Assembly: GCA_903959175.1 (NCBI GenBank)
Contig: CAJBVW010000072.1
Span: 1-32,015 of the forward strand
Length of the DNA: 32,015 nt
Origin: an uncultured Pseudomonadota bacterium
GTDB taxonomy: Bacteria; Myxococcota_A; UBA796; SXON01
Direction: 5' to 3'
Part shown: one piece after another, positions 2,124 through 8,098 of the stretch
Layout: the number at the start of each line of letters is the position of its first letter
Numbering within the stretch: position 1 is the stretch's first letter
Notes under the pieces: model-generated
Told to the model about the DNA's origin: nothing
What the model saw: only the letters and a program-made list of their open reading frames with translations
Databases searched by the model: none
Made by a program: the position numbers and the translations under genes

Positions 2124-5100
2124 ATGAAGGAAACTCAGGAACTACCTATCCAATTCGGGCGCTATCAGCTGCTCGAGCGCATCGCGGCAGGCGGGATGGC
2201 CGAGGTGTTCCTGGCCCGGAGCTTCGGCGTGGAGGGCTTCGAGACGCGCCTCGTAATCAAGCGGATCCTGCCGGAGCTCGCGCAGAACCCGAGGTTCGTC
2301 GGGATGTTCGTGCACGAGGCCAAGCTCTCGGTGTCGCTGAACCACCCGAACATCGTGCAGGTGTTCGACCTCGGGAAGGTGGGTGAGGACCACTACATGG
2401 CCATGGAGTACATCCAGGGCCGGGACCTCACGCAGGTCCTCCGCGTGCTGCGCCGCAACGGCGAGCGACTGCCCATCCCCATCGCGGTGACCATCGCCGC
2501 CGCCGTGGCCCGCGGGCTCGGCTACGCGCACGCCCGCGCCGCACCGGACGGCCGGCCGCTCTACATCGTGCACCGCGACGTGAGCCCCCACAACGTGATG
2601 GTGTCCTACGAAGGCGACGTGAAGCTCGTCGACTTCGGCATCGCGCGCCTCATCGGGGAGACCGCCAGCGCGCTGGCCCCCGCGAGCTCGGACGCGCGGC
2701 GGCCCGGCGGCGGGAAGTTCGCGTACATGTCGCCGGAGCAGGCGATGGGCGAGGCGCTCGACGGGCGCTCGGACCTCTTCTCGCTCGGCGTGGTGCTCTT
2801 CGAGATGCTGGCCGGGCGGCGCCTCTTCGCGGACGGCGACCCCGAGGAGAAGCTCCGCGCCGTCATCGCCTGCGACATCCCGGACGTGCGCGCCTTCAAC
2901 CCCGAGGTGCCCGACGCGCTGCGCGCCGTGCTCGCCAAGGCCCTCGCGAAGGACCCGGCGGAGCGCTACGCCGACGCGACCCTGCTCGAAGAGGACCTCC
3001 GCGCCCTGCTCTTCGAGATGGGCTTCCGCGGGGACGCCGCGCAGCGCGCCGGGCTCATGCGCCGGCTCTTCGCGGAGGAGATCGCCGGGCAGCGCGGCAG
3101 CGCCGAGCTGGAGCTGCTCGCGGAGGACCTCCACAACATGCACACGGGCGTCGAGCCCGAGCCGCTGGGCGGCTCCGCGCCCGACAGCGCCGGCACCCCC
3201 GCGACCGGCACGCACACCCTCGGACACACCCCCGGACACACCGACGAGCGCGCGCCGCGGCTCCTCCAACCGCACGGGGAGCGCCGCTCCGTCGTCGTCC
3301 TCACGGCCGAGGTCAACGGGCTCACCGACATCTCCGCCCGCGCCGAGAGCGAGGACATCGCGCGCATCCACTACCGGATGCTGCGCATGGTCCGCACCCT
3401 CGTGGACCGCATGGGCGGCGTCGCCGAGCGCTTCGACGACGACACGCTCTCCGTCTTCTTCGGCCTCCCCCGCGCCCTCGGGGACGACCTCGACCGCGCC
3501 CTCACCTGCGCCCGCGAGTTCCACCGGCTCGCCGCGCGCCTCCGTAAGCGTGGGATCGCGCTCGAGTTCTCGGTCGGCGTGCACATCGGCGACCTGACGG
3601 TTAGCCAGCGCTTCGGCAAGCGCTTCCGCTACGCCGCCCGGGGCGACACGCTCAAGAGCTGCGTGCGGCTCGCCTACGCCGCCGAGCCCGGCACCACGCT
3701 CGTGTCCGACCGCGTCGCGGCCCTCGCGGGCGACCGCTTCCCCTTCGACCGCGGCCCGGAGCTGCGCAAGAAGGGCGCGCGGGGCACGCGGCCGACGTTC
3801 CTGCTCGCGGGAGAGCGGCGGCCGGGCGTGCGCGGGGCGGCGGGGCGCTGGTTCCGGCGCGGCGACGAGCTCGAGGTGCTCCGCGAGATGGTCGCGGGGC
3901 TGCGCGAGGGCACCGGCGCGCGGCTGGCCATCACCGGCGACGCCGGCATCGGCAAGTCGCGGCTGTTCCGGGAGCTGCGCGAGCTCGCGGGCCGGCGCGG
4001 CATCCCCGTCTTCTCCGGGCGCGCCATCCCCTTCGGCAGCGATCGCCCCCTCGCCCCCTTCCGCGACCTCGTCAGCGACGTGCTCGGCATCAACCCCGAG
4101 ATGGGCCTGCCCGGCATCCGCGAGCGCCTCGACCGGCTCCAGGAGCTCCAGTTGGAGCCGTCAGACATCGCCGTCATCGCGACGCTCTTCGCGGTGGACG
4201 TGGGCGAGCGTCGCGAGCCGGGCCGGGAGGCGATGTTCACCGCGGCGGCGCGCCTCGTGCGCGGGCTCGCGGCGGACGGCCCCGTCATCCTCATGCTGGA
4301 GGATCTCCAGTATCTCGACCCGCTGGAGCGCTCGCTCTTCGAGCAGCTCCTCCGCGCGGCCGAGGGCGAGCCCGTGTTCCTCCTCGGCAGTTGGCGCGGG
4401 CGGCTCCCCGAAGGCCTGGGCGCGCTCCTCCGCGAGGTCGTGCTCGCGCCGCTCACCCCCGAGCAGGCGGACGCCATGGCGGCCGATCTGTTGGGCGCCG
4501 AGGCGATCGGCCCCGACCTCACGCGCCTCGTGCGCCGCACCGCCGAGGGCAACCCGCTCTACCTCGCGGAGATCATCAAGGCGCTGCACCAGGCGGGCCG
4601 CATCTACTTCGAGGGCACGACCGGCCGCCTGCGGGATCCCCGCATCGACCCCGGCCTCCCGCCCACCCTCCAGGGGCTCATCGCCGCGCGCATCGACGCG
4701 CTGGAGCCCGCTGCGAAGGGGGCGCTGCAGGTCGCCGCGATCGTCGGCCTCACGTTCTCGCCGCCGCTCCTCGGCGCGGCCGTGGGCGCGGACGACCCCA
4801 CGCTCCTCATCGGCGAGCTCGTGCGCGCCGGCCTCATCGTGCCGGAGAGCCGCAGCCCCGACACCGCCTACGTCTTCGCGTCCGTGCTCGTCTGGGAGTG
4901 CGTGCTGCGCAGCATCCTGGGCATCCAGCGTCGCGAGTACCACCGCATGGTGGCGGCCGGCATGGAGCAGATCCACGGCCCCCGCATCGAGCTGGTGGCC
5001 GAGTCCTACGCCGCCCACTGCCACGCGGGCGGCCGCATCCGGGACGCCGCCCTCGCCGTCTGCCGCGCGGGAGACGCCCACCGCCGCTCCCAGTTCCTCG

Positions 5101-6143
5101 ACCGCGCGCTCGAGTGCTACCTGCGCGGCATCAACTGGCTCAGCGCCGCGCCGCGCGACCAGCAGGACGACCGCCTCGACGCGCGCCTCCACCTCTGCGC
5201 CGGCGAGGTCGCGCTCCTCCTCGGCCGCGCGCGCGCGGAGAACCTCCTCCACGTCGCCCTCGACCTCGTCGCGGACGCCGGCCCCGCCGACTACGAGGCC
5301 CGCGCCCTGCTCGCCCTCGGCCAGATCCAGGCCGCGTCCGGCAAGTCGATGATGGCGCGCGCGCACCTCGACGCCGCGCTCGGCCTCGTGCGGCGCCTCA
5401 AGGACGTCGCCGGGCAGGTCCAGTGCCTCGAGGCCCTCGGCGGGCTCGCGCTGGAGGAGGGCCGCATCGAGGAGGGGCGCGTCCACTACGAGGAGGGGCT
5501 GCGCGTCGCCGGGGAGGACCGGGTGTTGGCCGCGCGTATGTTGCTCGGGCTCGCCAGTCACGCGTTACGACGGGACGACAACCCGAACGCGCTGGCGCTG
5601 CTGCGGCAGGCGCTCCCCTACGCCGAGAGCACGGGAGACCGCATCCTCCTCGGCCGGATCGTCAACAACATCGGCATCGCCCACTTCAACGAGGGCCGCT
5701 ACCACGACGCCCTCGAGGAGTTCCGCCGCGCGCTCCAGGTGCGCCAGGGCCTCGGCTACCGCTTCGGCGAGGTCGTGAACCTCCACAACATCGGCGACGC
5801 CTGGGTGCGCATCGGCGACATCGCGCGCGCCTACGCCAGCTTCGAGCAGAGCCGGGAGCTGGCGCGGGAGTCCGGGTGGGAGCGCGGGATGGTGATGAAC
5901 GACGTGTTCCTCGCCTACCTGCGCGGCCTCCGCGGCGAGGACGTGACCGACGCCCTGGAGAAGGCCGGGGCCGCCGCCGCCCGCCTCGGCGATCGCGAGA
6001 TGACGGTGCAGGCGCGTTGGCTCCTGGCGCGGCTCCTCCAGGACCGCCGCGATCCCAACGCCGACCGGATGCTCCGCGCCGTCGAGTCCGAGGCGCGGGA
6101 GGCCGGGTTGGTCGGGATCCTCAAGGAGATGGCGGGGGCGTAG
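2124..6143 (+). CDS. Ser/Thr protein kinase fused to cyclase-like, AAA ATPase and TPR domains
   Basis: This 1339-residue cytoplasmic signalling protein has four parts. Residues 12-300 are a Hanks-type kinase with a Gly-loop, Lys46, HRD at 150-152 in the form HRDVSPHN common in Myxococcota, and DFG at 170-172, so it looks catalytically intact. Residues about 388-560 resemble a class III nucleotide cyclase but are degraded: the first metal Asp is Glu396, the GD turn reads DD around 438-439, and the transition-state Asn is replaced. From about 585 there is an AAA/STAND-type ATPase with Walker A GDAGIGKS (605-612) and Walker B VILMLED (721-727). The rest, roughly 970-1330, is helical with TPR repeats. 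ATG 2124 is preferred over ATG 2061 because the latter overlaps the promoter candidate and lacks a spaced ribosome site. It probably phosphorylates unknown targets in response to a ligand or partner bound by the ATPase/TPR part. Confidence 0.92.
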   Translation: MKETQELPIQFGRYQLLERIAAGGMAEVFLARSFGVEGFETRLVIKRILPELAQNPRFVGMFVHEAKLSVSLNHPNIVQVFDLGKVGEDHYMAMEYIQGRDLTQVLRVLRRNGERLPIPIAVTIAAAVARGLGYAHARAAPDGRPLYIVHRDVSPHNVMVSYEGDVKLVDFGIARLIGETASALAPASSDARRPGGGKFAYMSPEQAMGEALDGRSDLFSLGVVLFEMLAGRRLFADGDPEEKLRAVIACDIPDVRAFNPEVPDALRAVLAKALAKDPAERYADATLLEEDLRALLFEMGFRGDAAQRAGLMRRLFAEEIAGQRGSAELELLAEDLHNMHTGVEPEPLGGSAPDSAGTPATGTHTLGHTPGHTDERAPRLLQPHGERRSVVVLTAEVNGLTDISARAESEDIARIHYRMLRMVRTLVDRMGGVAERFDDDTLSVFFGLPRALGDDLDRALTCAREFHRLAARLRKRGIALEFSVGVHIGDLTVSQRFGKRFRYAARGDTLKSCVRLAYAAEPGTTLVSDRVAALAGDRFPFDRGPELRKKGARGTRPTFLLAGERRPGVRGAAGRWFRRGDELEVLREMVAGLREGTGARLAITGDAGIGKSRLFRELRELAGRRGIPVFSGRAIPFGSDRPLAPFRDLVSDVLGINPEMGLPGIRERLDRLQELQLEPSDIAVIATLFAVDVGERREPGREAMFTAAARLVRGLAADGPVILMLEDLQYLDPLERSLFEQLLRAAEGEPVFLLGSWRGRLPEGLGALLREVVLAPLTPEQADAMAADLLGAEAIGPDLTRLVRRTAEGNPLYLAEIIKALHQAGRIYFEGTTGRLRDPRIDPGLPPTLQGLIAARIDALEPAAKGALQVAAIVGLTFSPPLLGAAVGADDPTLLIGELVRAGLIVPESRSPDTAYVFASVLVWECVLRSILGIQRREYHRMVAAGMEQIHGPRIELVAESYAAHCHAGGRIRDAALAVCRAGDAHRRSQFLDRALECYLRGINWLSAAPRDQQDDRLDARLHLCAGEVALLLGRARAENLLHVALDLVADAGPADYEARALLALGQIQAASGKSMMARAHLDAALGLVRRLKDVAGQVQCLEALGGLALEEGRIEEGRVHYEEGLRVAGEDRVLAARMLLGLASHALRRDDNPNALALLRQALPYAESTGDRILLGRIVNNIGIAHFNEGRYHDALEEFRRALQVRQGLGYRFGEVVNLHNIGDAWVRIGDIARAYASFEQSRELARESGWERGMVMNDVFLAYLRGLRGEDVTDALEKAGAAAARLGDREMTVQARWLLARLLQDRRDPNADRMLRAVESEAREAGLVGILKEMAGA

Positions 6144-6160: not shown

Positions 6161-8098
6161 CTACTCACACACCCGCTCCCCCCACTGATCCACGTTGTTC
6201 CCCTCGAAGCACTCGTCCACGGTGCCGAAGGACGTGGCGTCTCCGCCGTCGATGGTCACGAAGAGGTCGGTGAGGGGCGTCGGCACGCCGGTGAGCTCGA
6301 TCGACTCGGAGGCGGAGGCGCGGCCGGCGGGGAGCGCGGAGGTCCAGGTCATGCTCCCGAGGTGGACGGCGCCCGCCTCGGTCTCGCCCCAGATGTCGAC
6401 GAGCACGTCCTCCGTCACGTCCTGGTAGCCCTGGTTTCCGACGGTGAGCCACACGGTCACCTGGCCCCAGTCACACGCGTCGACGCACACGTCCTGGATC
6501 TCGACGAAGAGGTCCGGCCACGCGCGGCTGGCCCCGGGGGTGAGATCGCCCGAGCGGAAGTTGTTGTACGTCAGCCAGTTGGCGTCCTGGTAGAGCGGGA
6601 TGCTGCCGTCGTCGTTGACGTTGGTGATGCTGTACGCGTGTTGGTTCCACACGCGGCGGCCGGGTTGCCACGAGTGGTCGTCGTCCGAGAACACGGTCAG
6701 GCCGGTCATGCTGCCCCAGCGCCCGGGGGTGTTGGCGACGACGATGTCGGCGCTGCCATCCGCGTTCACGTCCGCGATCGTGGGGTACTCGAACCACGTG
6801 TTGTTCGAGTGGGTGGCGTCCTGCATCTTCATGCTGCCGTCGCGCCCGTCGAACACCCACACCCACCGCTCGTCCGCGTAGACCACGTCGGCGACGCCGT
6901 CCCCCTCGAAGTCGAACACGCTGGCGCCGGTGTTCCCGGAGCTCGGGTCCGTCGTCTCGGTGACCTGCCACGACACGGAGCAGTCGCGCTCGAACACGAC
7001 GTAGGTGGAGTTGGCCGCGACGCCGATCTCGGCGTACCCGTCCGCGTCGAAGTCGGCGACGGTGGGTGGGCCGCCGTACGAGCTGGTCGCGGAGGGGATG
7101 GCGGCGGTGCAGAGCACGGTGCCGTCGTCGTCCTGGACGCGCATGGTCGCGTTGCCGGTCACGACGACTTCGCCGAACGCGTCGTCGTCGAAGTTGCCGA
7201 CGGCGGTGTAGCCGTCACGCTCGCCGTTGTACCAGAGCGCGGTGCCGTCCATGCGATACGCGGCGTTGCCCGTGATGACCTCGAGGGCGCCGTCGAGGTC
7301 GAGGTCGACCGCGTAGCCGCTCGACCCGACGTTGAGCGAGCTGCCCCACCCGTACTCGCCGCGGCCGACGACGGTGCCGTAGGCGTCCACGATGCAGCTC
7401 CCGATGATGACCTCGGCGAGGCCGTCGTGGTCCATGTCGGCGATGCCGGGGGCATCCGAGATGCCGTCGATGTTCTCGCCGCAGTCGGTGACGGACCAGA
7501 GGCTCGCGCCGGTGCGGTCGAAGGCCTCCACGCCGCCCGCGATGGCCGCGAGGATCTCGACGTTGCCGTCGCCGTCGATGTCCCCGCAGGCCGCCCCGCC
7601 GGTGATCTGGAGGGTGCCGGCGCCGGTGGCGCCCCACAGCTCGTGCCCGTCGTCGCCGGAGACGGCGCGCAGCACGCCCGGCGAGTACGTCACGAAGACG
7701 ATGTCGGGCACGTCGTCCTGGTCCTGGTCGCCGTCGTCGTCGTCGTCCGTGAGCGAGCAGACCACGGGTTGCATCATACAGCTCGCCGAGCCCGGCGAGG
7801 TCGCGAACGTCGCGCTCGACCAGAGGACCTCGGGCGTGAAGGTGCCGACCACGGTGCCGCCCTCGTCGCAGGCGTCCAACTTGGGCACGTCGCGGGCGGC
7901 GAAGGTCTGGTCGTCACACTCGGGCGGGTCGCCGAGCTCGGCGGAGTCGGGTGGCGGGGTGATCGACGTGTCCACGTCCGGGGCGGGCGGGTCGACCTCC
8001 TCGTCCTCGCGGCCCGCGCCCATGCGGACGGGGTTCAACACGGAGTCCATCGTGCACCCAGCGGTGGCGACGAGGAGCAACAAGAGCGGGGCACGCAT
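6161..8098 (-). CDS. FG-GAP/VCBS-repeat lipoprotein
   Basis: This 645-residue protein starts with a lipoprotein signal ending in ATAGC (Cys15) and should be anchored in the outer or inner membrane facing outward. After an acidic, Pro-rich linker there are about seven beta-propeller-type FG-GAP/VCBS repeats, each with a calcium-binding-like D-x-D-x-D-G loop, for example DIDGDG, DMDHDG, DLDLDG, DFDADG and DFEGDG. A C-terminal beta-sandwich-like region follows, containing TVGNQGY, LTGVPTP and a final Cys pair. No enzyme motif is visible; binding or adhesion is the likely role. GGAGG at 8110-8114 lies 11 bases before the ATG. The gene ends 17 bases from the convergent kinase gene. Its C-terminus is clearly paralogous to the partial gene at 31755-32015. 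Confidence 0.88.
   Translation of the reverse strand: MRAPLLLLLVATAGCTMDSVLNPVRMGAGREDEEVDPPAPDVDTSITPPPDSAELGDPPECDDQTFAARDVPKLDACDEGGTVVGTFTPEVLWSSATFATSPGSASCMMQPVVCSLTDDDDDGDQDQDDVPDIVFVTYSPGVLRAVSGDDGHELWGATGAGTLQITGGAACGDIDGDGNVEILAAIAGGVEAFDRTGASLWSVTDCGENIDGISDAPGIADMDHDGLAEVIIGSCIVDAYGTVVGRGEYGWGSSLNVGSSGYAVDLDLDGALEVITGNAAYRMDGTALWYNGERDGYTAVGNFDDDAFGEVVVTGNATMRVQDDDGTVLCTAAIPSATSSYGGPPTVADFDADGYAEIGVAANSTYVVFERDCSVSWQVTETTDPSSGNTGASVFDFEGDGVADVVYADERWVWVFDGRDGSMKMQDATHSNNTWFEYPTIADVNADGSADIVVANTPGRWGSMTGLTVFSDDDHSWQPGRRVWNQHAYSITNVNDDGSIPLYQDANWLTYNNFRSGDLTPGASRAWPDLFVEIQDVCVDACDWGQVTVWLTVGNQGYQDVTEDVLVDIWGETEAGAVHLGSMTWTSALPAGRASASESIELTGVPTPLTDLFVTIDGGDATSFGTVDECFEGNNVDQWGERVCE

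Follow-up and report, generated by a model that had tools for sequence, protein, structure and literature searches.

The window analysed in this study is the whole 32,015-nucleotide stretch of contig CAJBVW010000072.1 (assembly GCA_903959175.1), which comes from an uncultured bacterium, and the gene of interest lies at 2124..6143 on its forward (+) strand, the strand to which all residue coordinates below also refer. It is a single open reading frame of 1,339 amino acids encoding, in order, a kinase, a predicted pseudo-cyclase, a STAND-type ATPase and a TPR region. The longest reading in the open reading frame listing runs from 2061 (1,360 amino acids); 2124 is the better start because in the close homologue L021 an in-frame stop occurs a few codons 5' of the equivalent methionine. 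L021 and L022 are 90-91% identical to the 1,339-amino-acid protein over its full length. The frame and start given in a preliminary description, made from the letters of the window, were therefore right.

The N-terminal Hanks-type Ser/Thr kinase domain spans residues 12-297 (2157..3014; Pfam PF00069 Pkinase at 14-288, E 6.5e-33), with the HRD motif at residues 150-152 (2571..2579) and the DFG motif at residues 170-172 (2631..2639). A fast-evolving linker follows (residues 298-384, 3015..3275), with 48% mean identity in family f1, to which the window protein belongs, and a ratio of nonsynonymous to synonymous substitution rates (dN/dS) of up to 0.50. The cyclase-homology domain (CHD), which has no complete catalytic set, occupies residues 385-566 (3276..3821). 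It is followed by an AAA_16 NTPase domain at residues 575-753 (3846..4382; Pfam E 1.6e-18), in which both Walker A (605-612) and Walker B (E726-D727) are present, as the preliminary description had stated. The STAND GxP-type motif retains Pro846 (4659..4661), found as proline in every ungapped row, and its glycine is variable among rows. The TPR region covers approximately residues 1001-1300 (5124..6023); its best stretch is 1180-1249 (Pfam TPR_12, E 2.9e-14), and the structures it matches by sequence include TPR proteins such as GPSM2.

Within the whole protein the Guanylate_cyc match (388-562) scored 17.9 bits, below the Pfam cut-off of 21.9, and the CHD scanned as a lone domain scored 23.6 bits, above it. 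A profile built from 16 members of the class found class III cyclases among known structures, with PDB 2w01 at the top (E=1.1e-29), and profile-profile alignment to motif-complete cyclases reached 99.7% in HHalign. Judged by sequence, it is certain that the CHD has the class III nucleotide cyclase fold (PF00211), with homology across the whole catalytic domain. The residue map of the former active site was drawn by two independent routes, alignment to intact relatives and HHalign profile-profile alignment, which agreed with each other and placed no intact catalytic set at other positions. The roles of the residues and their opposite-protomer placement are those given in the available text of PMC2576301, according to which active class III dimers take the metal-binding aspartates from one protomer and the alpha-4 asparagine and arginine and the beta-7/8 lysine from the other.

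Analysis of this map revealed that most of the catalytic residues are replaced. Glu396 (3309..3311) stands at the position of the first metal-binding aspartate (D1), where an acid occurs in all 58 class rows (37 glutamates and 21 aspartates); Arg436 (3429..3431) stands, by both routes, at that of the base-reading lysine. The Gly-Asp turn is replaced by Asp439-Asp440 (3438..3443), of which Asp440 is the retained second metal-binding aspartate (D2); aspartate is found at 439 in 50 of the 58 rows and an acid at 440 in 57. Ser483 (3570..3572) takes the place of the beta-4 arginine that positions the triphosphate, a position that is basic in none of the 58 class rows and Arg or His in all 27 kinase-less relatives. 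Arg502 (3627..3629) is found at the base-reading aspartate position, which carries a basic residue in 49 of the 58 class rows and an acid (Asp or Glu) in 24 of the 27 kinase-less relatives. Lys511 (3654..3656) is found at the position of the ribose-orienting, transition-state asparagine, where 56 of the 58 class rows, and none of the 27 kinase-less relatives, have Lys or Arg. The alpha-4 arginine (Arg515, 3666..3668; basic in 55 of 58) and the beta-7/8 lysine (Lys550, 3771..3773; basic in 58 of 58) are retained. Among E396, R436, D440, R502, K511 and R515, only two of the six residues of the canonical set (two metal aspartates, asparagine, arginine and the base-reading lysine and aspartate) are kept. 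These are not the residues of a catalytically competent class III cyclase, and the designation of the CHD as a predicted pseudo-cyclase is well supported. The preliminary description had named three of the changes, namely Glu for the first metal Asp, DD for the GD turn and the missing transition-state Asn. All three are real; its list left out the changes to Arg436, Arg502 and Ser483, together with the retained Asp440, Arg515 and Lys550.

The kinase presents the opposite picture, for K46, E65, H150, D152, N157, D170, F171 and G172 are invariant in all 67 rows having the region and R151 varies. The claim of intact kinase motifs is thus borne out, and with the VAIK lysine, the C-helix glutamate, the HRD aspartate, the asparagine and the DFG motif all present, it looks like a working Hanks-type kinase. 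The Walker lysine, Lys611, is conserved in 65 of 68 rows and replaced by arginine in three. Comparison of the homologues revealed that D1, D2, the asparagine and the arginine never occur together in the 68 kinase-fused homologues, nor in seven further kinase-AAA proteins, of which L157 is one (0/75 in total); one clade of kinase-fused homologues (17 of 68 rows) retains D1, D2 and the arginine. The fragment L051, in which the CHD is missing, and the duplicates L021, L022, L084 and L085 were removed before counting, and the 58-row class count omits L106, the most divergent class row. The four residues are complete in 15 of 27 distinct kinase-less CHD-AAA-TPR relatives (18 of 31 with the duplicates L154, L156, L168 and L169), a group defined by no kinase match to the window protein at the cut-offs applied and chosen by similarity to the window protein or to TIGR03903, not randomly. 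Since the same kinds of CHD change recur in relatives whose CHDs are only about 31-41% identical, chance is excluded as the source of the defects. A subgroup of the kinase-less CHD-AAA-TPR proteins (L125, L126, L129-L131, L164, L166, L176) keeps both metal aspartates and the arginine and has glycine in place of the asparagine.

The gene is widespread in the class. It was found in 60 of 71 class genomes (match E <= 1e-110), in one place each with the single exception of one genome that holds two pieces; among the other 11 genomes, partial matches were present in G034, G037, G052 and G028, and no piece was seen in the remaining seven. The CHD-to-TPR part was matched in 52 of 188 phylum genomes (E 1e-40; an even draw, class members included). 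Outside the class, nine kinase-fused homologues of full length were found (L113-L121). The source genome (611 contigs, 7.2 Mb, 95% complete) holds one copy. Three other kinases of the same genome, L010 (contig C597), L018 (C599) and L014 (C33), run, as judged by eye, directly into an AAA_16-like ATPase with no cyclase domain between, and on C599 there are two kinase matches, separated by about 3.4 kb.

Analysis of selection revealed that the CHD is closely guarded in family f1. Mean identity to the window protein within this family is 76% for the CHD, 73% for the kinase, 64% for the ATPase and 61% for the TPR region, and in eight family-f1 pairs the dN/dS of the CHD is 0.008-0.09, the lowest or near-lowest of the domains in most. 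In two family-f3 pairs it is approximately 0.18, comparable to the other domains, and in the rest of the order, beyond family f1, the kinase is better conserved than the CHD (58% vs 41%). The CHD is under purifying selection in family f1; it is not in decay, and its altered state is no isolated case. The changes also form a charge pattern: in the 58 class rows one side of the old active site is acidic (396, 439, 440) and the other basic (502, 511, 515, 550), and position 483 is never basic. The preliminary interpretation is therefore supported in part: residues, relatives and selection bear out a pseudo-cyclase attached to an intact kinase, and the nucleotide-sensing or dimerising role that it offered for the domain is a candidate one. 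As the view of a single protein it missed that the state is old and class-wide, that the new charge pattern is conserved, and that nine relatives have a coupled cyclase gene (described below).

The reading we prefer, and hold with about even confidence, is that the protein is a cytosolic STAND-type kinase switch in which the pseudo-cyclase serves as a protomer-pairing module. An emptied fold of an obligate dimer, set between a kinase and a STAND core, fits a module for pairing kinases. STAND proteins with a TPR sensor are closed when bound to ADP and switch to an open multimer bound to ATP (available text of PMC6468293). By analogy with known STAND proteins, the TPR region would take in a signal, and the AAA_16 core would shift its nucleotide state and promote multimer formation; the N-terminal kinase would be the sole enzymatic output kept throughout. 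The CHD, although no longer producing cyclic AMP (cAMP) or cyclic GMP (cGMP), would remain folded, and its pairing, with a dimer geometry borrowed from known class III proteins, would unite two kinases for trans-phosphorylation. Positions 396 and 440 face 511, 515 and 550 in active dimers, and the interface here may accordingly be held by salt bridges and free of nucleotide; bridges between the acidic side of one protomer and the basic side of the other could close the emptied cleft in place of the magnesium nucleoside triphosphate.

Several results weigh against this reading. The retained D2, arginine and lysine are equally suited to a phosphate ligand. The split between E396/K511 and D396/R511, which resembles length compensation, is one clade event and thus one independent pair, and does not amount to statistical covariation between the two positions. 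Gained charges show a borderline enrichment at the site (2/9 vs 6/174, Fisher p=0.052), which is not used as proof. AlphaFold gave no usable model of structure or dimer from an alignment of three near-identical sequences (the window protein, L021 and L022), the predicted local distance difference test (pLDDT) score being 52 for the CHD and 35 for residues 1-760. The ATPase motifs have changed in the class rows that lie outside the order, with the Walker A serine replaced by alanine or glycine in five of seven and the Walker B aspartate by asparagine in five of seven (L098, L100-L102, L104, L106, L109; kinase intact), and the STAND switch may therefore fail in some members.

The foremost rival is a ligand sensor, in which the altered CHD cleft would bind a nucleotide or other phosphate compound without cyclising it and so gate the kinase. 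With 396 acidic throughout and D2, the alpha-4 arginine and the beta-7/8 lysine nearly always of the retained charge in the class, metal and phosphate contacts are possible, and the low dN/dS of the CHD agrees with such a role; both base-reading positions and the beta-4 arginine are replaced, however, so the usual recognition of ATP or GTP is unlikely. We regard this explanation as possible but rather unlikely.

The second rival arises from the neighbours of the gene in relatives, where a PF00211 survey of cyclase genes was made. In nine family-f1 loci of genera g3 and g4 (L025, L027, L028, L029, L030, L032, L033, L035, L051) the next same-strand gene is a cyclase that starts at the stop of the kinase gene or within about 40 bases, and in L030, L032, L033, L035 and L051 the start and stop codons overlap. 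The adjoining cyclase has a hydrophobic, multi-span N-terminal half, as judged by eye with no transmembrane predictor, and a PF00211 domain (scanned in two of the nine), and its catalytic motifs (LDKF-GDG, N-A-A-R and the first-metal FVDIR) are intact. Across the class, a close full-length homologue of this cyclase (E <= 1e-100) occurs in 10 family-f1 genomes, beside the kinase gene in nine and in a genome with no kinase homologue in the tenth (G007); the two genes are thus adjacent in all nine family-f1 genomes that hold both. The coupling of kinase and cyclase is real and local to one subclade. The pseudo-cyclase might accordingly form mixed dimers with the membrane class III cyclase, or the kinase might dock on it, linking the STAND kinase to cAMP output. 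Against this, the source genome has only catalytic-domain matches to that cyclase (best 4.1e-29) and no full-length homologue, and no cyclase gene adjoins the kinase gene in the window; three g4 genomes (G009, G018 and G019) have the kinase with no such cyclase beside it, and in family f4 distant cyclase homologues (34-40% identity) lie on contigs other than that of the kinase. Because the cyclase is missing or unlinked in these genomes, a regulatory partnership cannot be the general function, and we consider this explanation doubtful. A combined account is in our judgement equally doubtful: a former cyclase would serve a STAND kinase as a domain for charge-clamped dimerisation or for docking a partner, and in some members of the lineage this kinase would be coupled in translation to a genuine membrane cyclase. 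If true, Ser/Thr phosphorylation and cAMP would be cross-wired within a single operon by a pair of active and dead cyclases, the reverse of the receptor guanylyl cyclases, in which an active cyclase is under the control of a dead kinase. The nine relatives with a coupled cyclase make it possible to ask directly if a real cyclase is controlled by a pseudo-cyclase.

Residual cyclase activity, by which the CHD would still make cAMP or cGMP through unusual residues, is very improbable: glutamate is able to bind metal and one clade keeps D1, D2 and the arginine, but the asparagine has become Lys or Arg in nearly all class rows, the base-reading residues are replaced and the beta-4 arginine is lost. 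That the CHD is a decaying vestige is the least credible explanation, since it is the best-conserved domain in family f1 with the low dN/dS given above, although it is barely recognisable in the kinase-fused homologues outside the class.

The neighbourhood seen from the window is little kept outside the genus, with scattered matches only (a PAS protein in L134 and L144; a hexapeptide protein in L134, L137 and L138). A convergent gene for an FG-GAP repeat protein lies at 6161-8098 (-), its stop about 18 bases from that of the kinase gene, and the other neighbours in the window are MFS, a PAS-domain protein with HATPase_c, an OPT transporter, DUF924, spermine synthase and patatin. In family-f3 loci L139, L140 and L146 a convergent gene, whose N-terminus appears by eye to be J-domain/DnaJ-like, ends beside the kinase gene. 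The source genome contains seven PF00211 matches above the cut-off, the CHD of the window included. An anti-phage role was considered and rejected, the PADLOC matches being generic kinase ones.

Comparison with known systems revealed that the nearest whole-protein NCBIfam model is TIGR03903 TOMM_kin_cyc (TOMM system kinase/cyclase fusion protein), which resembles the window protein in domain order and is co-linear with it over the kinase and the cyclase-AAA-TPR part; the window protein differs in scoring 275 bits against a cut-off of 705.75. No TOMM-type genes were seen nearby among the Pfam matches of the ten window open reading frames scanned, a scan that did not cover every frame and in which NCBIfam was not run. 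The only protein above the TIGR03903 cut-off in 188 genomes, L157 (G116:C2), also has no cyclase catalytic residues. With none of the 75 kinase-attached cyclase domains examined keeping the catalytic set, the name 'kinase/cyclase fusion' is open to question, and the word 'cyclase' in the family name may, on the residues found, be a misnomer. The architecture as a model (TIGR03903), STAND kinases and pseudo-enzymes are already known; pseudo-kinases are well studied and pseudo-cyclases much less so. No kinase-pseudo-cyclase protein of this kind was found in the literature searched, a search whose reach excluded most subscription journals. As far as that literature goes, what is new is a constrained, class-wide pseudo-cyclase with a defined charge pattern and, in a subclade, coupling to a motif-complete membrane cyclase. 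The case is near-universal and apparently single-copy across a bacterial class, its replaced residues are defined, and in family f1 constraint is stronger on the dead domain than on the kinase. The strict preservation in relatives of a domain without its chemistry suggests that an enzyme of the past has been taken over for control.

To our knowledge, PknK of M. tuberculosis has no cyclase domain. Like the window protein it carries a kinase inside a STAND protein, and the available text of PMC9045387 calls it a STAND kinase and states in a section heading that it forms homodimers in vivo. A precedent for dead cyclase domains in bacteria is offered by the cNMP-cyclase domains of vWA proteins in conflict systems, which the available text of PMC7159879 predicts to be inactive and proposes as nucleotide binders or dominant negatives; their architecture and gene context differ from those found here. 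Bacterial CHD-AAA_16-TPR cyclases share the CHD-NTPase-TPR order, and the kinase-less relatives in the phylum keep the four catalytic residues more often, whereas the window protein combines an altered CHD with an added kinase of the active type. The CHD profile also matched structures of human soluble adenylyl cyclase ADCY10 at approximately 1e-12, an enzyme in which a CHD is likewise followed by NTPase and TPR. Finally, the profile matched the receptor guanylyl cyclases (e.g. ANP receptor 1, 9bcv, at 2.8e-12), in which a kinase-like domain precedes the cyclase domain. In those receptors it is the kinase domain that is a pseudo-enzyme, joined to a working cyclase; the window protein is their mirror image, with an intact kinase and a predicted dead cyclase in place of a dead kinase and an active cyclase.

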